Source of the DNA: Lachnospiraceae bacterium
GTDB taxonomy: Bacteria; Bacillota; Clostridia; Lachnospirales; Lachnospiraceae
Direction: 5' to 3'
Assembly (NCBI GenBank): GCA_017441295.1
Contig: JAFRYA010000014.1
Location: 1-53,186 of the forward strand
DNA: 53,186 bases
A model generated the notes under the pieces. It worked only from the letters and a program-made list of their open reading frames with translations, did not search any database and was not told the origin of the DNA. Within the stretch, counting starts at the first letter, position 1; each line of letters begins with the position of its first letter. Positions 19,225-43,610 of this stretch are shown in pieces. Both the position numbers and the translations under genes were made by a program.

Positions 19225-20519
19225 ACAGACATATGAAGACCATTGCCAGGATCATCCTTTCAGCAGTTGCCGTCCTGCTCACATTTTTCATATTGAAAGT
19301 ACCTACACACGCTGCAGCTACTGATGAGATACTGAACTTTGCCATCACAATTGATGTAAATGAAGACGCTTCTCTGAATATGACCTACCATATAGAATGG
19401 AAGGTGCTTGATGACTCTATAGGCGAGCTGGAGTGGTTAGACATCGGCATGCCTAACAGCTATCACGGGAATATTACTCCCCTTTCCGACACCATCGACT
19501 TCATAAATGATATGGGCAATTCTTTGGAAATTTACCTGGACAGGGGTTACAAAGAAAATGAGACAGTGGTCGTGGAGTTTTCCCTGACTCAGGATCACAT
19601 GTACCAGATTGATAAATATGTGGAAGGCGAAACCGTTTATACATTCACTCCCGCATGGTTCGACGAAATTGATGTAGACACTCTTACCATCCTTTGGAAC
19701 GCTGCAGGTGCCGGTGCATGGCAGCCTGACTGTTATGAGGAAAACGGATATCTGGTATTTTACACTTCTCTTTCTGCAGGCGACAGATATACCATGAGCG
19801 TAACTTATCCAAATGATGCTTTCGGTTTTGCTTCTGACAGGCAGGAAGGCAGCGGAGACAGTGGAAACAGTGGTTACAACGATCCTGATTTCGGTCCGGA
19901 TAATAAAAACGATATATTTGACATCATAGGAGGTTTAGTAGGTTTTGGCATCTTCGGCGGAATGATAGCAGTTCCTATCATTTTAATTACCAAGTTTATC
20001 AGATGGATTGCCAGAAGCGGATCTGGCTTCGGCACCAGTCAGACGATGCAGAAGAAGATAGTTCGTACCAAGATCGAATATTTCCAGAACTGTCCAAGCT
20101 GCGGAGCAGCTCACGAGGAAGGCAAGGATATATGTGAGTATTGCGGCAGGAGCATGATCAAGCACAAGGAAGTAGTTGAGGAGAGCCAGATCAAAGACCC
20201 TGAAAAATATACAACTAATGGTACTTACCGATATGGCGATTCTCCGAATACATTTATAAATGTCAATGTAGTAAACATTCCTGTAAGGAGTACCCGTAGC
20301 AGCAGTTCCGGCTCACGGAGCAGTTCAGGACATCACTCTTCATGCGCATCATCGTGCGCTTCGTCCTGTGCATGCGCATCCTCCTGTGCATGTGCCTGCG
20401 CATGTGCGTCCTCCGGCCGTGCAGGTTGTTCAGTTAAAGACTTCTTTAACTCCAAGCTGCATGAAGGACGGGTGCGTATAGAGAGCAAAAGGCACTCAAT
20501 AGAAAAGAATAAGGAATAA
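19221..20519 (+). CDS. Secreted/membrane protein with zinc ribbon and repetitive Cys-Ala-Ser tail
   Basis: I take the ATG at 19221, with AAGGAGG 8 bases upstream and a 4-base overlap with the radical SAM stop. The 432-residue protein has a signal peptide (about residues 7-33, ending THAAA), an extracytoplasmic beta-rich domain (about 34-235), one transmembrane helix (about 236-262, IIGGLVGFGIFGGMIAVPII), a zinc ribbon (CPSCGAAHEEGKDICEYCG) and a Ser-rich linker. The tail has nine cysteines at 375, 379, 383, 385, 389, 391, 393, 395 and 403 in a C-A-S-S / C-A register, then SSGRAGC and a basic end. The tail is cytosolic if the signal is cleaved and the helix is a stop-transfer, which would make it accessible to the neighbouring enzyme. 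No function is known to me. Confidence 0.88.
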   Translation: MNRHMKTIARIILSAVAVLLTFFILKVPTHAAATDEILNFAITIDVNEDASLNMTYHIEWKVLDDSIGELEWLDIGMPNSYHGNITPLSDTIDFINDMGNSLEIYLDRGYKENETVVVEFSLTQDHMYQIDKYVEGETVYTFTPAWFDEIDVDTLTILWNAAGAGAWQPDCYEENGYLVFYTSLSAGDRYTMSVTYPNDAFGFASDRQEGSGDSGNSGYNDPDFGPDNKNDIFDIIGGLVGFGIFGGMIAVPIILITKFIRWIARSGSGFGTSQTMQKKIVRTKIEYFQNCPSCGAAHEEGKDICEYCGRSMIKHKEVVEESQIKDPEKYTTNGTYRYGDSPNTFINVNVVNIPVRSTRSSSSGSRSSSGHHSSCASSCASSCACASSCACACACASSGRAGCSVKDFFNSKLHEGRVRIESKRHSIEKNKE

Positions 20520-20562
20520 CAATTACAAGAATTATTTCTTTGCAACTTTTCCAAAATAAAAA

Positions 20563-20595
20563 CGGCGGGCTGGTGAAAACCAGTCCGCTGTTTTT
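20563..20595. terminator. Bidirectional terminator between convergent genes
   Basis: An 11-bp stem (CGGCGGGCTGG / CCAGTCCGCTG, two G-U pairs) with a TGAAAA loop has T-runs on both sides, serving the Cys-tail operon and the minus-strand serine hydrolase. Confidence 0.8.
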
Positions 20596-22080
20596 CTATT
20601 GAAATATTTTTTGATAAAGAGGCTCGTCCATCCGTTTATCACCGAGAAAGCCAAAGACTTTCAGCTCGGATGTACCGAAATCAAACCGGTACACCTTGCA
20701 CTTGCTGAATCCCAGCCATCGGATGAATACTTCGAATGTCTGCTTTCCTGTCCATCGGCCGCAGGCCAATGTCTCCTGCGCGTATCCGCTGCCGAACTTA
20801 AATATATTATATCTGGATGCACCTTCCAGACCTATCATTATTCTCTGCTCTCCTGCAGACGTCGGGCACAGCAGCGCAGCTGTATTGTCATCAAACATGA
20901 ATCTGAACTCCTTAATGGTTTCGCCCTTCGGAGCCTTGGTCATCATGTTAAAAGTTTCGTTTTCCAGGTCAAATCCTTCTTCACAGATAAACGTTCTGCC
21001 GTTAATAGTTCTTTCAAATACTGGCCTTTCTGATAGAGCTGCGTCCTGCAGTTTCAGCTGGCTCAGTCTGTCTTTAAGTATGCAAGCGGCCTCTCCGCTG
21101 CCTTCTATTGGAGCGTTCTGAATATGCGGAACAACTATTTTCCAGAACTGCTCGACTGCGTCCAGATCGCCCTTGCGGGTGCTGTTCTGATGCAGGGAGA
21201 GGATCAGATCGTAATCCGGCATGACCATCGCTATCTGCCCCAGGGCTCCGCGGCCGAAATACGCATTGTACGCCACAGATCCCCACATCATCCAGTTATA
21301 ACTTATGTCAGCGCCTTCTAAATATCCTGTGTCCTGGCTTGTGACTATGTGATGCGGCTGAACAGCCTCTTTGGCAAACTCTTTGGACAGGAGCTGTTCA
21401 CCGTACGCTATGCCGCCGTCAGCGTAAAGTTTCATAAGCCTGAGATTCTGCTCAGTAGTAGACAGAATGCCTCCTGCTGCCGCGTCCAGCCCGGTGCCGG
21501 CTTCCTTCAGCCATTCAAAATTCCCGGTTTCTATGCCTATCTTCCCGAAAAGTTTCTGAGCCAGATACTCTTCCATGGACATGCCTGTCTTCTTCTGGAC
21601 AATCGCACCCAGAGCTGAGGCAGTGCCGTTATGATAGAAGAACTTTTCTCCCGGCTCGTATGCCAGAGGTCTGGCCATGTACCTGTCAATACTGTCAGTC
21701 GGGCCGAATTCCTCTTCCGCAAAGCCTGCGGACATGGACAGCATATCCCTGACCCTGACGCGCCTCATCTTCTCGTCCGTAACAAGTGAAGCATATTCCG
21801 GGAAGATATCGACCAGCCTGTCGTCAAGGCTAAGCAAACCCTCCGTGACGGCCAGCCCGATTGCTGTGCCTGTATAAGTCTTCGCGAGTGAATTCGAACC
21901 ATGCTTCACATCCCGGCCATACGGTGCCCACCAGCCTTCTGCGCAGACCTTGCCGCGACGCATCAGCATCAAGCCATGCATCTCCGTCTGCAGCTCACCC
22001 AGACTGTCCAAATATTTCAGGAGCACCTCTGAAGGTATACCGACGCTCTCGGGCGTCACACGCTCGAAATTTGTAGCCAT
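20596..22080 (-). CDS. Serine hydrolase, beta-lactamase class C/esterase family
   Basis: The 494-residue protein has the family's SxxK catalytic motif (S64-LA-K67 in GSNSLAKTYTG), the YxN motif (Y149-H-N151 in FFYHNGTAS) and the typical DDRLVDIFPEY segment after the first motif. No signal peptide is visible (MATNFERVTPESVG), so it is probably a cytoplasmic esterase or peptidase-like enzyme rather than a secreted antibiotic beta-lactamase. About 140 C-terminal residues form an extra beta-rich domain. The ribosome site is weak. The TATAAT box around 22116-22121 on the minus strand could be its -10 element. Confidence 0.85.
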   Translation of the reverse strand: MATNFERVTPESVGIPSEVLLKYLDSLGELQTEMHGLMLMRRGKVCAEGWWAPYGRDVKHGSNSLAKTYTGTAIGLAVTEGLLSLDDRLVDIFPEYASLVTDEKMRRVRVRDMLSMSAGFAEEEFGPTDSIDRYMARPLAYEPGEKFFYHNGTASALGAIVQKKTGMSMEEYLAQKLFGKIGIETGNFEWLKEAGTGLDAAAGGILSTTEQNLRLMKLYADGGIAYGEQLLSKEFAKEAVQPHHIVTSQDTGYLEGADISYNWMMWGSVAYNAYFGRGALGQIAMVMPDYDLILSLHQNSTRKGDLDAVEQFWKIVVPHIQNAPIEGSGEAACILKDRLSQLKLQDAALSERPVFERTINGRTFICEEGFDLENETFNMMTKAPKGETIKEFRFMFDDNTAALLCPTSAGEQRIMIGLEGASRYNIFKFGSGYAQETLACGRWTGKQTFEVFIRWLGFSKCKVYRFDFGTSELKVFGFLGDKRMDEPLYQKIFQ

Positions 22081-22203
22081 AAGACTTTACCTGCTCTTTC
22101 TTAAAGGTTGATTCTATTATAAACTATCTCGCTTATTGCGTGGGTTTTTTATTCATGCTATCATTTGAATAAGAAAATGTATGAGAGTCAGTCCAAACTG
22201 ACC

Positions 22204-22372
22204 TTGCGACATCTATTTTTCTTTGATTTAATCAAAATCTGCGCCTTTTCGGCAATAATTCATTGCTTCAGGCGTATACTTTCCCTTTTTTATTAAGTTA
22301 TCTGCGCCTCTAACTGTCTAATGCGGTCAAAAAGGCGTATTTTATCCCCGAAATTCTCTTAAAATCTGCGCT
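22204..22372. repeat. Upstream periodic inverted-motif array (three units, 63-64 bp period)
   Basis: The right-arm motif AATCTGCGCC or a near copy occurs at 22236-22245, 22299-22308 (TATCTGCGCC) and 22363-22372 (AATCTGCGCT), spaced 63 and 64 bp. Degenerate left arms GGCGTATACT (22271) and GGCGTATTTT (22334) precede the second and third copies at the same 28-29 bp offset seen downstream of the gene. The segments between units are exactly 25 bp (22246-22270, 22309-22333). The first unit's left arm is decayed. This explains most of the 319-bp gap before the next gene; nothing else is evident between 22081 and 22203 apart from the hydrolase promoter region. Confidence 0.85.
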
Positions 22373-22399
22373 AAGCAATTAAACGAAAGGAATAATTCT

Positions 22400-23200
22400 A
22401 TGGAAAAATTTATGAACACATTTAACGCCATCAATGATGAATTATATTACACTAACAGACTTTGGCAAGCGGCTGAAATGAGGCTTTGCGTAGCCCCTAA
22501 AGGATTCTTAAGAACATCACATCACAACGGCAGCATACAGTATTATCACCGGCAGAATACGAAAGACAAAAATGGAGTCTACATACCGGCAGACAACCTG
22601 GAGCTAGCCTCTGCACTTGCTCAAAAGAAATATGACCAGCAGCTGGTCAAAGCTGCAAGAGCACAAATCGAACTGATTTGCTCTTTTCTAAGAAAATATG
22701 ATCCGGAAGCATTGGAAAAGGTCTATTCTTCTACCAGCAGATATCGCCACTGCCTTATAGAAAAGGCTATTCTACCCGATGAAGAATATGCAGCAAAATG
22801 GCTGGCTCAAGACTATGTTAAAAAAGGTTTTACAGAAGGCTCTTCCGAATACTATACACAAAATGGTGAACGGGTCCGATCTAAGTCAGAAGCTGCAATC
22901 GCTGATGCTCTGCTCCGCGCAGAATTGCCATATCTTTATGAGTACCCAATAGACATTGAAGATATTACTCTGTATTCAGATTTTGCAATTTTAAGGAAAC
23001 GCGACCGAAGAGTAATACGTTGGGAGCATTTTGGAATGATGGATGATACTTATTATCGAAATGAAGCAATGAGCCGATTGAAACTCTATGAAAAAGCTGG
23101 CCTGGTTCCGGGAAACGGATTGATTATTACAATGGAAACCATTAAGCAGCCCTTGAATTTGAAAACTATAAAAACTACTATTGATCACCTTTTGTATTAG
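22400..23200 (+). CDS. PD-(D/E)XK-like nuclease-fold protein flanked by periodic repeats
   Basis: The 266-residue product has an AAAGGA site 9 bases upstream. The N-terminal half is charged and helical, with a conserved-looking GFLRTSHHNGSIQYYHRQ segment and LASALAQKKYDQQLVKAAR. The C-terminal half has the order expected of a PD-(D/E)XK fold: an acidic residue in a helix (E164 in RSKSEAAIADALL), LPYLYEYP, an aspartate (D194 in LYSDFAIL) and an E-x-H in the next strand (E209-H210 in VIRWEHFGMMDD) in place of E-x-K. Catalysis is an inference. I recall similar proteins in gut and rumen Clostridia but cannot name the family. The gene is more AT-rich than its neighbours and carries palindromic arrays on both sides, suggesting an acquired unit. 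Confidence 0.75.
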   Translation: MEKFMNTFNAINDELYYTNRLWQAAEMRLCVAPKGFLRTSHHNGSIQYYHRQNTKDKNGVYIPADNLELASALAQKKYDQQLVKAARAQIELICSFLRKYDPEALEKVYSSTSRYRHCLIEKAILPDEEYAAKWLAQDYVKKGFTEGSSEYYTQNGERVRSKSEAAIADALLRAELPYLYEYPIDIEDITLYSDFAILRKRDRRVIRWEHFGMMDDTYYRNEAMSRLKLYEKAGLVPGNGLIITMETIKQPLNLKTIKTTIDHLLY

Positions 23201-23207
23201 CCTTGTT

Positions 23208-23372
23208 GGCGCAGATTTCTTTATTATTCTAATATTTTTCTGCGCCTTTTCGGTTTATTTTTAATAACTTCGGCGCAGATTATCCTATGTTTCTCAAGCA
23301 ATCTGCGCCAAAGCATGCTTTATGCATCAAAAAAGGCGCAGATTCTGATAATTAATCTCCAGAATCTGCGCC
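23208..23372. repeat. Downstream periodic inverted-motif array (three hairpin units, 63-64 bp period)
   Basis: Three units, each GGCGCAGATT - loop - AATCTGCGCC: 23208-23246 (right arm TTTCTGCGCC, 19-base loop), 23272-23309 (perfect 10-bp arms, 18-base loop) and 23335-23372 (arms extended to 13 bp, 12-base loop). Both spacers are exactly 25 bp (23247-23271, 23310-23334). Left arms recur every 64 and 63 bp and right arms every 63 and 63 bp. Loops and spacers differ in sequence; only arms and distances are kept. The array begins 8 bp after the nuclease-like gene's stop codon and ends 15 bp before the purA stop codon. Confidence 0.92.
23329..23372 (-). terminator. Terminator of purA, formed by the last array hairpin
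   Basis: On the minus strand a 13-bp perfect stem (GGCGCAGATTCTG / CAGAATCTGCGCC) is followed by six T (plus-strand A-run 23329-23334). One array unit has thus been recruited, or selected, as the purA terminator. Confidence 0.75.
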
Positions 23373-23386
23373 AAACCGACATATAC

Positions 23387-24661
23387 TTACTTAATAATAA
23401 TACTATCCCTCTCGGCTCCGACTGAAATATACTTGATCGGGCAGCCGATGGCGTCTTCGATCATGGTTACGTATTTGCGGGCCTGCTCCGGCAGGTCTTC
23501 CCACTTGCGGACGCCTGAGATATCACAGTTCCAGCCTTCGAAATACTCGACAACCGGCTGCGCGCTGTCCAGTGCCAGCGGGAATGGGAACTTGTCTGTC
23601 TGCTCGCCGTTCAGCATGTAATGCGTGCAGACCGGGATTTTCTCCATACTGCTGAGAATGTCCAGCTTGGTCAGGGCAATGTGTGTTGCGGCCTGAACTT
23701 CTACGCCGTAGCGTGTAGCAACGAGGTCGATCGGGCCGACACGGCGCGGTCTGCCTGTTTTGGCACCGTATTCTCCACCGGCTTCACGGAGTTTTTCTGC
23801 TTCATCTCCGAACATTTCGCATACGAAAGGTCCTTCTCCGACGCAGGTGGAATATGCCTTGACTACGCCGATAACATCATCGATTTTGGCTGACGGCAGT
23901 CCTGAGCCGATCGGTGCGAATGCTGCAGTCGTGTTGGATGAGGTGGTGTATGGGTAAATGCCGTAATCCAGGTCACGCAAGGAGCCCAGCTGGGCTTCAA
24001 ACATGATGTTCTTGCCTTCCTTCTGCGCGTTCTTGAGGAATTCTCCCGTATCGCATACGTAAGGCTTGATCTTCTCGCATGAATCCTTGATCCACTCGTC
24101 CAGCATCTCCATGGTGAATGGCTCGCCGCTGTATACCTTGGTCAGTGTGAGGTTCTTCCATTCCATGATCTGCGCAAGGTGGTTTCTAAGCTCTTCTGGA
24201 TAGAAGAGTTCGCCTGCCAGCACGGTTTTCTTTTGGTATTTATCTGAATAGAAAGGAGCAATGCCCTGCTTGGTTGATCCGTATTTCTTGTCGCCCAGAC
24301 GCTTCTCCTCCATTTCGTCCAGTTCGCGGTGCCATGGAAGAAGGAGTGATGCGCGCTCGCTGATCTTCAGGTTGTCAGGTGTCAGAGGAACTCCTCGGCT
24401 CATGACTTCCTGCATTTCATTCCACAGGTTCTCCGGGTCCAGAGCCACGCCGTTGCCGAGAATGTTTACGACACCTTTGCGGAAGATTCCGGATGGAAGC
24501 AGATGCAGCGCGAATTTGCCATACTCGTTGATAACGGTGTGGCCCGCGTTGCCGCCGCCCTGATAACGGACTACAATATCATAATTTCCGGTGAGAAGGT
24601 CGACCATACGGCCCTTGCCTTCGTCACCCCAGTTGATTCCAACTATTGCACAGTTAGACAT
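23387..24661 (-). CDS. purA: Adenylosuccinate synthetase
   Basis: PurA converts IMP, aspartate and GTP to adenylosuccinate, the first committed step to AMP. The 424-residue length is standard. GWGDEGKG-type (INWGDEGKGRMVDLL) and QGGGNAGHTV motifs at the N-terminus bind IMP and GTP and carry the catalytic Asp and His. TGRPRRVGPIDL and TKLDIL are also present. AGGAGGG lies just before the ATG. The start overlaps the 3' end of the glycosidase gene, so purA is the last gene of a minus-strand run that begins at a nitroreductase, an unusual place for a housekeeping purine gene. Confidence 0.97.
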   Translation of the reverse strand: MSNCAIVGINWGDEGKGRMVDLLTGNYDIVVRYQGGGNAGHTVINEYGKFALHLLPSGIFRKGVVNILGNGVALDPENLWNEMQEVMSRGVPLTPDNLKISERASLLLPWHRELDEMEEKRLGDKKYGSTKQGIAPFYSDKYQKKTVLAGELFYPEELRNHLAQIMEWKNLTLTKVYSGEPFTMEMLDEWIKDSCEKIKPYVCDTGEFLKNAQKEGKNIMFEAQLGSLRDLDYGIYPYTTSSNTTAAFAPIGSGLPSAKIDDVIGVVKAYSTCVGEGPFVCEMFGDEAEKLREAGGEYGAKTGRPRRVGPIDLVATRYGVEVQAATHIALTKLDILSSMEKIPVCTHYMLNGEQTDKFPFPLALDSAQPVVEYFEGWNCDISGVRKWEDLPEQARKYVTMIEDAIGCPIKYISVGAERDSIIIK

Positions 24662-26333
24662 TTTTCCCTCCTGTATATGTAAGCTTTTCAGCTATAATCT
24701 GCATTCTGGCTTCATCTGCCTTACACAGAGCCCTGTCATATGTCAGCAGGCCGTTCGTCTCATCCTCCACATCGGAAACCTGTGTGTAGATTGCCCCGGC
24801 GAGACCCGCCTGCACCGCAGGAATGATTTCGTCTGTGTACAGCTTCTCCAGCGCATCCATAAACTGACCCTGATCCTTAAAGAATCTGTAGCCATAGGTT
24901 TTGCTCAGGTTGAAGCAGTGATCCGCTGCCTTGTATGAATATCCGCCGAACTCGCTCAGCAGCACCGGCTTTTCAGAAACAGGCAAGCTGAATTTCTTAA
25001 AATAAACATGCTCGCTCAGCAAGTCGCTCCCGTTCGGGCGGAACCATCCTGAAGCCGTGTCAATAATACGCTTATTGTCCAACTCTTTCAAGAGTTCATA
25101 TACTTTGTCAGCATTAAATTGACCCCATCCTTCATTGAAAATGGTCCAGCAGCAGATAGACGGATGGTTGTACAGCATATCCACCGTGTTCTTCATGGAT
25201 TCCAGGAACATACTGCGGCTCTCCGCATCCTTATTCAGATGGCTGTCGTTAAGCTTTTTGATGCCTATCGTCGGCAGCGCAGTATCCCTGAAAAACGAAT
25301 ACTTCCCGTTGTTGACCATGTCCTGGAATACGATCATGCCCAGCCTGTCGCACTCGTAATAGAACTGTTCAGGCTCCACTTTTATATGCTTTCTGAGCGT
25401 GTTAAAGCCCAGTTTCTTCATTGCCTTAATGTCTTCTGCGAAGCACTCCGGATCAGGCGGTGTGCAGATGCCTTCCGGCCAGTATCCCTGGTCCAAAAGG
25501 CCATGGAAGAAGAACGGCCTGCCGTTCAGGCAGATGCTTTTCCCCTGCACCGAGATTGTGCGCAGTGCGAAGTATGAATGCACCTCGTCTCTGCCTGCGC
25601 GAACTGTGAACTCATATAATTTAGGGCTGTCGGGCGTCCAGCAAATGATTTCCAAAGGCGCCAGAGTAACGTGCCCGTTTGAATATGGGATTTCCCTGCC
25701 TTCGAAAACAACGGTTCCGCATGTTGGTCCGTCTATTTCTATTTCTGCCGCAGTCAGGTCTGTGTCTATTTTCAATGAGCTTATGTGCTCGGCGGGCACT
25801 ACTTCTATCCACACGCTCTGCCATATCCCGGAGAATGGAGTGTACCACATCCCGCCCCTCTTCAGGGTCTGCTTGCCGTATGGGAAAGCCTTCCTGTTCA
25901 GATCATCAAAGGCTATGATTGTCAGCGTGTTTTCCCCGCTTAAAAATGGGGTGATATCTATCCCTGCGCGGCCCTGAAATGTATGTATATGCGCCGCCTT
26001 TACATCATTTACGTATACATCTGCCTCCTGATCAACAGCGTCTATGTGCAGCAGAACCACATCATCAGCGCCATACTGTATCTCAGGCAGCTGTCTAGAA
26101 TATTTAAGCGGCGTTCCTTCCGGGAAATGCCGGCCAACGCCAGACAGCGAAGCCTCAACAGGATAAGGCACCTTGACCGTACCTTTATATGAACCCGCCT
26201 CGAAATCCCAGATTCCGTTCAGATTCAGAAAGCAGTCCCTTCTGAATTGCGGACGCGGATGAACAGCACCTCCATAAGGCACCGGTGGATTCTCCTGGCC
26301 GTATGTAGTTAACTGAACGGTTTCAGGCTTCAC
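24654..26333 (-). CDS. Glycoside hydrolase family 2 protein (beta-galactosidase/glucuronidase-like)
   Basis: This 559-residue enzyme has an N-terminal sugar-binding jelly-roll (LNLNGIWDFEAGSYKG...), an immunoglobulin-like middle domain and a TIM barrel. The acid/base glutamate lies in FNEGWGQF and the likely nucleophile in LLSEFGGYS. No signal peptide is present, so it acts on imported oligosaccharides or glycosides. Start is GTG at 26333 with AGGGGA upstream, and it overlaps the MFS transporter gene by 11 bases, pointing to a coupled uptake-and-hydrolysis pair. The sugar specificity cannot be read from sequence. Confidence 0.9.
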   Translation of the reverse strand: MKPETVQLTTYGQENPPVPYGGAVHPRPQFRRDCFLNLNGIWDFEAGSYKGTVKVPYPVEASLSGVGRHFPEGTPLKYSRQLPEIQYGADDVVLLHIDAVDQEADVYVNDVKAAHIHTFQGRAGIDITPFLSGENTLTIIAFDDLNRKAFPYGKQTLKRGGMWYTPFSGIWQSVWIEVVPAEHISSLKIDTDLTAAEIEIDGPTCGTVVFEGREIPYSNGHVTLAPLEIICWTPDSPKLYEFTVRAGRDEVHSYFALRTISVQGKSICLNGRPFFFHGLLDQGYWPEGICTPPDPECFAEDIKAMKKLGFNTLRKHIKVEPEQFYYECDRLGMIVFQDMVNNGKYSFFRDTALPTIGIKKLNDSHLNKDAESRSMFLESMKNTVDMLYNHPSICCWTIFNEGWGQFNADKVYELLKELDNKRIIDTASGWFRPNGSDLLSEHVYFKKFSLPVSEKPVLLSEFGGYSYKAADHCFNLSKTYGYRFFKDQGQFMDALEKLYTDEIIPAVQAGLAGAIYTQVSDVEDETNGLLTYDRALCKADEARMQIIAEKLTYTGGKNV

Positions 26334-31226: not shown

Positions 31227-32855
31227 ATGGCTTACGTGGCCCTTTACAGAAAATTCAGACCGCAGACTTTTGAGCTTGTCAAAGGACAGGATCATGTTGT
31301 GCGCGCTCTTAAAAATCAGATAAAAACAGGCCGCATCGGACATGCCTACCTCTTCACCGGCACACGCGGTACAGGCAAGACCAGCGTTGCCAAGATTTTC
31401 GCCAAGGCGATTAACTGCATGCATCCTGTGGACGGTGAGCCTTGTAATGAATGCGAAAGCTGCCTGGCTATCCAGCAGGGCAACTACATCGACGTTGTAG
31501 AGATTGACGCCGCTTCCAATAACGGTGTTGACAACATCCGCCAGATCATTGAAGAGATCCAGTACACTCCGGTCAAAGGCAAGTACAAGGTCTTCATCAT
31601 TGACGAAGCCCATATGATCACCGGCAACGCATTCAACGCTTTTCTTAAAACTCTCGAAGAGCCGCCTGCATACGCGGTATTCATTCTGGCAACGACCGAG
31701 CCTCACAAGCTGCCAATCACCATTCTTTCCAGATGCCAGCGCTACGATTTCAAGCGCATCAGTACTGAAGTCCTGGCTGAGAACCTCGCATATCTGGTCG
31801 GTCAGGAAGGTGTTGAGGCTGAGGAAAAGGCTCTCAAATATATAGCCCGTTTAGGTGATGGCTCCATGAGGGATTCCATCAGCCTGCTCGATAAATGCAT
31901 TGCGTTCAACCCGGGCGAAAAACTGACATATGATAACGTCCTGAACACACTGGGTGTGGTAGACACCGAGGTCTTCTCTCACCTCTTCAGGGCAGTCTAC
32001 GCAGGAGACGCGGCATCAGCTCTTAAAGAGATTGACAATGCTGCCGCTCTGGGCAAGGACCTGAGTCAGTTCGTGACAGACTTCATCTGGTATCTGAGGA
32101 ACATCCTCATGGTGAGCGTCACCGACGGCAAGGACCTGGATATGCTGGGCCTGTCCGCCGAGAACCTCAAGCTTCTCAAAGAGGATTCCGCTGTGGCAGA
32201 CGCTGAGACCCTGATGAGATATATCCGCATTCTGTCGGAGCTGCTTAATCAGATCCGCTATTCACAGGCGAAACAGATTCTTGTTGAAATAGCCTTCATC
32301 AAACTGGCCAAGCCGCAGATGGAGACTGACACAGCCTCACTGGCTGACAGGATCAGACAGCTCGAGAGCCGCCCTCAGAGCTCTCAGCCGGTCTATTTCC
32401 AACCAGAACCGGAGAGGGAACAGATAGAAATAACATATACACCGGAACCAGTTCCTGCGGATATTCCATACGAAGCAGAGGCTCCTGCAGATATACCTGC
32501 CCCGGCGCCGCATGCAGCCACAGGCATGACACCGGCGCAAAGGGTCGTAGAACAATGGGAGACACTCAGGTCAGGCCTGAATGACATTATCCTGAAGACC
32601 CAACTCAAGAAAGCTTCACCATACGCGGAAGGCGATATGATCACCATTTACGTAGAGAGCAAGATGGGCGAGCGCGCGATCAGGGACGGCCTGGATCAGC
32701 TGAAGAGCCGGGCGAAAGAAATGGCAGGCACCGACATTGACATAACAGTCAAACTCGGCACCCCTCCGGATCAGGAAGGTCCGGCATTGGACGATGAATA
32801 CTTATCATCAATTTTAGAAGTAATAAACATGGAAGTTGGAATGGAGGACAGATAA
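31227..32855 (+). CDS. dnaX: DNA polymerase III subunits gamma/tau
   Basis: DnaX is the ATPase of the clamp loader. The 542-residue protein has Walker A GTRGTGKT (45-52), zinc-binding cysteines C64, C73, C76 and C79 (CNECESC), the DEAH-like IIDEAHM segment and the sensor region LSRCQRYDFKR. A Pro/Glu-rich linker (about 380-440) leads to a C-terminal tau-type domain. CAGGAGAG precedes the ATG. I did not see an obvious slippery A-run with hairpin for a programmed frameshift. Confidence 0.97.
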   Translation: MAYVALYRKFRPQTFELVKGQDHVVRALKNQIKTGRIGHAYLFTGTRGTGKTSVAKIFAKAINCMHPVDGEPCNECESCLAIQQGNYIDVVEIDAASNNGVDNIRQIIEEIQYTPVKGKYKVFIIDEAHMITGNAFNAFLKTLEEPPAYAVFILATTEPHKLPITILSRCQRYDFKRISTEVLAENLAYLVGQEGVEAEEKALKYIARLGDGSMRDSISLLDKCIAFNPGEKLTYDNVLNTLGVVDTEVFSHLFRAVYAGDAASALKEIDNAAALGKDLSQFVTDFIWYLRNILMVSVTDGKDLDMLGLSAENLKLLKEDSAVADAETLMRYIRILSELLNQIRYSQAKQILVEIAFIKLAKPQMETDTASLADRIRQLESRPQSSQPVYFQPEPEREQIEITYTPEPVPADIPYEAEAPADIPAPAPHAATGMTPAQRVVEQWETLRSGLNDIILKTQLKKASPYAEGDMITIYVESKMGERAIRDGLDQLKSRAKEMAGTDIDITVKLGTPPDQEGPALDDEYLSSILEVINMEVGMEDR

Positions 32856-43063: not shown

Positions 43064-43610
43064 TATAATCCTCTATTGTTTTTTCCATTAAAAACTGATT
43101 TGGAACCGATTTGGTCAGCCAAACGCCATTTGTTGATTTGTAAAAATGATAACCTAAAGCATACATCTTTTTGCAGTCAACCATATAAACGACGGGTTTT
43201 CCATGACGTTTGCCAACTTTAATTGCAGTTTCTATATTATCTGAAAGGTGAACGTATAGCCTAGATTTCGGTATAAGCCCCATAACATCTATAGATGGCA
43301 CATATTTCTCTCCTGTTCCATGATAAAGAATATCAGGAGGCACAAATTCCTTCAGTTCAACATCAACAGGTACTGAATGTCCTTGGTTAGCACGTATAAG
43401 TGTTTTATTTTCATTAAAGGAATAGCGCTGCTTTTCGTCTGCTTCTACAATATGCTCCAGCAATTTCATATTAAAAGGCACTTTGTTGTTTATTCCTTCA
43501 ACCAGATCATGAACATCTGCCCATCCATGTTCATCTAAAACAATATTAATTTCTTCGGGTTTATGCCTTAAAATAAAGGCAATATATTTGCTGATATCTT
43601 TTTCTTTCAT
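43044..43610 (-). CDS. kptA: RNA 2'-phosphotransferase KptA/Tpt1 family
   Basis: The enzyme removes an internal 2'-phosphate from RNA, or acts as an NAD-dependent ADP-ribosyltransferase on RNA ends. The 188-residue protein has family motifs in order: YIAFILRHKPE, HGWADV, IRANQGHSV, LYHGTGEKY, HLSDNIETAIKVGKRHG. AT content and A/T-ending codons are clearly higher than in flanking genes, which suggests horizontal acquisition. Bacteria generally lack the splicing that generates 2'-phosphates, so its physiological role is open. It runs directly into the tyrosine phosphatase. Confidence 0.93.
   Translation of the reverse strand: MKEKDISKYIAFILRHKPEEINIVLDEHGWADVHDLVEGINNKVPFNMKLLEHIVEADEKQRYSFNENKTLIRANQGHSVPVDVELKEFVPPDILYHGTGEKYVPSIDVMGLIPKSRLYVHLSDNIETAIKVGKRHGKPVVYMVDCKKMYALGYHFYKSTNGVWLTKSVPNQFLMEKTIEDYNGKYKT

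Follow-up and report, generated by a model that had tools for sequence, protein, structure and literature searches.

What is a lone nuclease-like gene doing between two sets of short inverted motifs that recur at a constant distance? The question is raised by a locus at positions 22204-23372 of a stretch of 53,186 nucleotides from a Lachnospiraceae bacterium (contig JAFRYA010000014.1 of assembly GCA_017441295.1), which is called the window throughout and corresponds to contig C40 of the 1.99-Mb host genome assembly (G000; 46 contigs). As read from the sequence, the locus comprises one open reading frame (ORF; 22400-23200) with three units on either side. The reading favoured here, to which a probability of about one half may be given, is that of a two-part element, whose protein would bind the half-sites of the units in duplex DNA and, through cutting and recombination, would establish copies of the array at new positions between genes.

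Each unit of the window consists of two inverted half-sites of about 8 bp apiece, with the arms GGCGCAGATT and AATCTGCGCC, and the units follow each other with a period of 63-64 bp:

22204-22372, no strand: upstream array of three units, left arms GGCGTAT- or lost, right arms TCTGCGC(C/T)
22236-22245: right arm of upstream unit 1 (from the sequence), its left arm at about 22208 lost
22271-22308, no strand: upstream unit 2, 38 bp (from the sequence)
22334-22372, no strand: upstream unit 3, 39 bp (from the sequence)
22400-23200, plus strand: gene of 266 amino acids (aa), unnamed family (from the ORF, its homologues and an AlphaFold2 model)
22403-22696, plus strand: N-terminal part, residues 2-99, a long helix, a beta-hairpin and a long helix (secondary structure of the model)
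22799-23197, plus strand: predicted PD-(D/E)XK-type nuclease domain, residues 134-266, with the candidate catalytic residues E164, D194, E209 and H210
23208-23246, no strand: downstream unit 1, 39 bp, GGCGCAGATT, loop, TCTGCGCC
23272-23309, no strand: downstream unit 2, 38 bp, GGCGCAGATT, N18, AATCTGCGCC
23335-23372, no strand: downstream unit 3, 38 bp, GGCGCAGATT, N18, AATCTGCGCC

The gaps at 22246-22270, 22309-22333, 23247-23271 and 23310-23334 are exactly 25 bp long in all four cases, and both this value and the period agree with an earlier note on this DNA. Its description of three units on each side holds for the six positions, but only the downstream units are strictly inverted and carry intact 8-bp arms in all three cases; upstream, the left arms have drifted, and that of unit 1 is unrecognisable. 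The upstream array ends 27 bp ahead of the start codon. Within the contig, the exact 10-mer of the motif is confined to 22236-23372, as the earlier note had stated for the window, yet it recurs elsewhere in the same genome, where 28 exact matches were counted, six of them at the window locus and part of the remainder isolated. Complete arm pairs number 11 in this genome, including three at the locus. An Rfam search of 20000-26000 gave no match at the arrays and no intron family, a single sub-threshold match to an L20 leader (20499-20602) lying away from them. The promoter scan of 22081-23420 detected just two matches; these fall within the gene and are on the minus strand.

For the window protein, sequence searches of Pfam, NCBIfam and PDB revealed nothing above cut-off (other members of the family gave weak scattered matches), and no PDB match was obtained with Foldseek at E 0.001. 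The C-terminal domain of the AlphaFold2 model (mean pLDDT 95.7) is predicted to adopt a nuclease fold like that of the homing endonuclease I-Bth0305I, TnsA and Vsr, with the homing endonuclease and TnsA being nearest, and a fold search of BFVD returned eight matches headed by a homing endonuclease of a Bacillus phage. Model and fold comparison thus support the PD-(D/E)XK-like protein that had been proposed from the letters. The candidate catalytic residues are near invariant across the family. From its modelled shape, the N-terminal part may serve as an arm for dimerisation and/or site recognition. The C-terminal domain also matches profiles of PADLOC, above all the candidate defence profile PDC-S68 (E 2.8e-24 for the window protein; 26/26 members of the set A1), followed among the A1 members by PDC-S69 (24/26) and HEAT_CxxC_PDDEXK (18/26). 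The PDC-S68 match is not full-length, being limited to profile positions 1090-1218 of 1221 (about 130 positions).

The protein belongs to a sizeable family. A search yielded 205 homologues at E 0.001 or better, with no Pfam domain in any of the 120 listed, and a scan of named genomes gave at least 574 confirmed loci. Among the matches listed, 80 loci come from Lachnospiraceae and other Clostridia, from Treponema and relatives, a Fibrobacter and an Eggerthellales bin, mostly from rumen and gut assemblies. Cultured carriers of the gene include Treponema bryantii NK4A124 and Butyrivibrio sp. AE3009. The gene is present in 24 of 61 genomes of the window's relatives, often in several copies. In a sample of the phylum, 22 of 398 genomes showed a match. 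Full-length matches occurred in only five genomes, all of the window's own family; the remaining matches covered the C-terminal half in 14 cases (several of them in much longer ORFs) or, weakly, the N-terminal part in four. The latter are ORFs of about 104-113 aa in G183, G218, G350 and G395 (L231, L227, L234 and L229), and as far as such sequences tell, there may also be small proteins that consist of the N-terminal module alone. Viral contigs gave 47 pattern matches without a single relative, and plasmids three partial matches annotated as AAA-ATPase. Among phage records, an unverified 4.2-kb faecal clone (MT839528.1; L209:3078-3830) encodes a near full-length relative with 29.5% identity over 95%, for which no upstream array was found by the detector described below.

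To what extent arrays accompany the gene was determined at 111 loci with a detector that records repeated 8-mer/reverse-complement pairs at constant distance and is blind to the spacing between units. The near-duplicate L107 was left out, while the identical pair L104 and L139 was counted twice. For 99 loci, 300 bp or more of upstream sequence was available. An upstream array of at least three units was found in 57 of them, and one of at least two in 68; downstream arrays of at least three units were much rarer (6/107). Since three units were reached in only 1/99 downstream control regions and in 0/297 dinucleotide shuffles, chance can be excluded. The sole control region with an array, L095, contains five units about 760-1460 bp downstream of the gene and is perhaps a further array rather than noise. 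In 40 of the 57 arrays, the last arm ends 19-129 bp ahead of the predicted start codon. Five of eight full-length loci fetched later also possess at least three upstream units. A protein with a matched periodic array, as suggested in the earlier note, is therefore encountered in much of the family. The note had also named homologues without arrays as speaking against its proposal, and these exist: at 42/99 loci no upstream array of three units was detected, though the misses include the drifted upstream array of the window, whose downstream array was detected, and that of a paralogue on contig C34.

The spacing of the units is revealing with regard to the nature of the target. Spacings cluster at about 53, 63, 74, 84, 95 and 105 bp, and for 10.5 bp the mean resultant length R was computed from centre-to-centre spacings (all, or one per distinct value per locus). 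The first set, of spacings below 130 bp, gave 0.878 (148 spacings) and 0.836 (64 distinct-per-locus), a larger set of gene-linked arrays 0.890 (n=202) and 0.852 (n=78 distinct-per-locus). Dispersed arrays, with spacings up to 260 bp, reached 0.896 (n=108) and 0.81 (n=35 distinct), the latter becoming 0.82 (n=34) when L199 was omitted, a gene-linked array with a fragment of a family gene at the contig edge. In a fresh test with later-fetched loci, adjacent spacings below 130 bp, the downstream arrays of two loci included, gave 0.909 (n=25) and 0.836 (n=9); with long spacings the values dropped to 0.76 (n=28) and 0.48 (n=11). As spacings within a locus are not independent, p-values can only be a rough guide. 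Jumps by whole turns also occur within single arrays (73, 104, 74 and 62 bp in L088). Proteins that stack along a single face of a duplex would be expected to show whole-turn spacing, and these data accordingly point to sites in double-stranded DNA that share one helical face, and not to RNA. The idea of six helical turns and a single face, put forward earlier for the window, thus gains far stronger support from the family (R 0.852, n=78) than the window itself could provide.

Conservation within the units agrees with half-sites. In families with divergent loops, a stretch 10.5-17.5 bp from the dyad shows 0.89-1.0 identity compared to about 0.5-0.8 in the loops; the level is partly built into the 8-mer detector, and the result lies in the position. 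Only the half-sites of about 8 bp recur between units of divergent arrays. In units with at most two changes, 39 changed arm pairs were found, of which 30 break pairing, nine leave a G-U pair and none is compensatory. In duplicated arrays, the arms are spared. In C32c and C32d of the host genome, differences amount to 0/40 in the arms and 55/125 elsewhere (Fisher 9e-9), and in four array copies of genome G001 (without a fifth, C97, which contains an indel) 7/70 arm columns are changed compared to 50/172 others (1.4e-3). Since an intact motif in one copy, or in most copies, served to define the arm positions, this result is somewhat favoured.

Are the arms matched to the protein? The earlier note had suggested comparing them with protein relatedness, and arm similarity is indeed correlated with protein identity (Mantel r 0.33, 57 loci, 0/2000 permutations as high), a correlation that could equally come from shared inheritance. 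In one Lachnospiraceae group (L047, L052, L062, L064, L082 and L096), a large neighbour gene is constant (7/79 loci) while the arms differ; thus, the arms appear to evolve in place. The host genome itself harbours three paralogues of the window protein. The copy on C7 (51% identity, with a stop inside the frame) has six divergent units beside the gene start, with the arms GGCGTATA and TAGACGCC (L013:3708-4885); five were grouped as one family and the sixth was read by eye. Its left and right arms mismatch at the same position in 6/6 units. On C34, the paralogue at 43494 (34% identity) is again framed by three units before and three after, with the arms TTGGACTA and TAGTCCAA, while the one at 32294 (37% identity) is preceded only by scattered TGTCCCCAGT and ACTGGGG motifs, in which the detector saw no array. 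Hence, the arm sequence differs between the copies of the host, and the geometry is kept in three of four.

The arrays are by no means restricted to the gene. In the host genome, window-type arrays without a nearby family gene lie on C15, C27 and C30 (one unit) and at four places on C32, beside genes including those for a cleaved-adhesin protein, a MATE transporter and an aldo/keto reductase. Of 29 stretches fetched around arrays taken as gene-less, 28 contained no family gene. A self-contained system, as proposed in the earlier note, is thus not supported, since the same arms also occur in arrays that stand alone and have no family gene in the fetched flanks. On C32, two related three-unit arrays enclose an ORF of 3206 aa, and their surroundings can also be aligned, over about 490 bp at 68% (L024:3953-14296).

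Dispersal mostly follows the presence of a matching gene. Units of the type TCATGTA-N-TACATGA number 51 in G001 and 15 in G006 (one of the latter, at C148, resembles a stray match), and genes with matching arms are located on C111 of G001 and C187 of G006; one further unit was found in G013 and none in ten other genomes of the same genus. Pairs of the window arms (GGCGCAGA) are absent from all 13 same-genus relatives. Likewise, five Treponema-group genomes with matching gene-linked arrays contain 21, 27, 9, 10 and 17 TACGG(A/C)(C/T)(A/G) pairs, linked arrays and a few stray single matches included, as against 2, 0, 0, 0, 0 and 0 in six genomes chosen for other arms, the two being units 95 bp apart; G034 is uninformative in this respect since its TACGGTTA arms fall outside the pattern. 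Exceptions are formed by G066 (two units) and G013 (one unit), both without a checked gene, and by the TTGGACTA arrays, which are not dispersed. The palindromes are, therefore, dispersed and tied to a cognate gene, as is characteristic of a REPtron (see below). The occurrence of the same arrays at unrelated loci had been listed in the earlier note as an argument against a dedicated system. Such arrays do exist, but they are scattered mostly in genomes that hold the matching gene, which suggests a dispersed dependent element rather than an accident.

Some arrays have evidently been copied. Compared to the array on C121 of G001, those on C96, C61b, C127 and C97 are 96%, 84%, 83% and 82% identical over 295-368 bp (among the matches listed). 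Beyond the array, the likeness is lost in about 90 bp or less, and the ORFs on either side vary in both size and direction, the right flank of C121 ending with the contig after 168 bp. At four loci of G001 (L165, L170, L163 and L171), TCATGTA arrays adjoin units of a second arm family, GTCATGCG, which is also found beside the gene at C85; to judge from this arrangement, the two families seem to travel together. One array of G065, together with an adjoining gene for a CAAX-protease-like protein, is missing from the corresponding position of G064. No target duplication is visible, and gain and loss are not distinguishable at this site. An unrelated repeat, GC-rich and about 85 bp long, forms its border (L187:1858-1940, G065); some twenty matches to it exist in G064. 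For a second array of G065, the matching G064 contig shows the same flank and one diverged unit before it ends; some arrays thus persist over speciation. Together, the copied arrays and the presence/absence site suggest mobility.

The genes around the arrays have little in common. The functions of 29 sampled neighbour proteins are ordinary and for the most part unrelated, with MatE and Rce1-like proteins occurring twice each, and clustering of 313 neighbour ORFs revealed no conserved neighbour (best cluster 7/79 loci). Dispersed arrays lie between larger ORFs, some of them between convergent genes, and short ORFs (72-131 aa) overlap five of 11 in one set. At the window locus, the neighbour purA was followed into 13 same-genus genomes and found in ten of them, at 11 loci, ten of which show its 3′ side. 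None of these ten contains the nuclease gene or a three-unit array, but the window's other neighbour is absent as well, so that they do not represent a clean empty site.

Which alternatives have to be considered? The main rival, though unlikely, is a regulator with a nuclease fold, that is, an autorepressor which also controls other genes by the dispersed arrays and has no mobility of its own. The mostly upstream position of the arrays, the short distance between last arm and start codon and the location of dispersed arrays between larger ORFs would suit such a protein, and phased operators are well adapted to cooperative repression. On the other hand, it is difficult to see why a regulator should retain near-invariant candidate catalytic residues, why its supposed targets share no function (apart from the two recurring types) and lie in part between convergent genes, or why whole arrays were copied into different contexts. 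Less probable still is a defence system, with invading DNA as the target of the nuclease and with arrays that mark or regulate self. The C-terminal match to the ends of the PDC-S68, PDC-S69 and HEAT_CxxC_PDDEXK profiles and the patchy, multi-copy distribution are compatible with this assumption; the small portion of PDC-S68 that is covered and the lack of a conserved partner gene speak against it.

Two further explanations are very improbable. Phased inverted sites and long helices would fit the scaffold of a chromosome-architecture protein, which bridges or wraps DNA and whose arrays are kept for the benefit of the host, and arms changing less than loops in duplicated arrays would agree with it. 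By contrast, the arrays are few, the window arm pairs occur in 0/13 same-genus genomes, and the near-invariant nuclease residues would have no explanation. The least probable is a structured-RNA system, be it of the type III toxin-antitoxin, CRISPR or TIGR kind or a leader RNA, in which the unit would be an RNA hairpin; the structured-RNA array mentioned in the earlier note is accordingly disfavoured. In principle, hairpins can form from the units, the variation of loops and gaps resembles that of spacers, and the arrays are usually located upstream of the gene, as are ToxI repeats. However, whole-turn spacing is typical of duplex DNA and would not be expected of RNA, none of the 39 changed arm pairs is compensatory, Rfam revealed no match at the window arrays, and arrays also lie beside unrelated genes, away from the family gene.

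Returning to the two-part element, its mode of action can be envisaged as follows. One protein dimer would occupy each unit, and neighbouring dimers would stack on one helical face. Expression might be limited by the upstream array, which would double as an autoregulatory operator. If the nuclease breaks the DNA in or close to arrays, recombination could follow and spread them, and gene-less arrays would be passengers that depend on the gene, in the way assumed for REP sequences and RAYT transposases. It is conceivable, if somewhat less probable than the element as such, that it represents a class of bacterial selfish DNA not described before, in which a PD-(D/E)XK nuclease on its own would read phased palindromic arrays in duplex DNA, regulate itself and drive copies round the chromosome, while arms and protein would co-evolve in several phyla. 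For dispersed palindromes in bacteria, the best-known model is that of RAYT transposases acting on single-stranded hairpins. If confirmed, the present system would represent a second and independent path to a genome parasite of this kind, with an unrelated predicted enzyme fold and palindromes set at duplex pitch, in Lachnospiraceae, Treponema, Fibrobacter and others, and it would supply a large natural set of nuclease/half-site pairs for studying the evolution of DNA specificity. In the open-access literature searched, judged by title and start of the abstract, no paper describing such a system was found; novelty is based on this search and on the lack of fit to known systems, not on proof of absence in print.

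How does the element relate to these systems? A CRISPR or TIGR-Tas array was rejected, as only half-sites of about 8 bp recur and neither a Cas nor a Nop domain was detected in the window protein with Pfam and NCBIfam. As regards type III toxin-antitoxin systems, the same two databases showed no ToxN-type family in this protein, and Rfam gave no match at the arrays. With PDC-S68 and PDC-S69 of PADLOC, the protein shares a related C-terminal nuclease domain but differs in its N-terminal part. TnsA of Tn7 is similar in its predicted fold; unlike there, no neighbour is common to more than 7/79 loci, thus there is no constant TnsB/TnsC partner, and the arrays usually lie on one side only. EDxHD (Vsr-like) homing endonucleases such as I-Bth0305I have the Vsr-like catalytic fold that is also predicted here, whereas the gene of the window is free-standing and has its own multi-unit and dispersed arrays; no intron was found at its locus, nor a matching empty allele next to purA among the ten loci mentioned above. 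The closest resemblance is to REP/RAYT systems (REPtrons), in which, as outlined in PMC3116915 and PMC8266576, dispersed extragenic palindromes have a specific partner gene in their genome, enzyme and palindrome co-evolving. Here, too, dispersed palindromes are tied to a gene of the same genome. No HUH (RAYT/TnpA-REP) transposase was recognised, however, the window protein having no Pfam match at cut-off and a model with a predicted PD-(D/E)XK nuclease fold; the listed arms show, by eye, no fixed GTAG tag, and the arrays with their whole-turn spacing point to duplex DNA instead of single-stranded hairpins. Because an enzyme and dispersed cognate sites are both present, a REPtron-like pair is the simplest account, and by analogy the system is best read as a selfish pair of the REP/RAYT kind that would be built on a different enzyme and on duplex sites.
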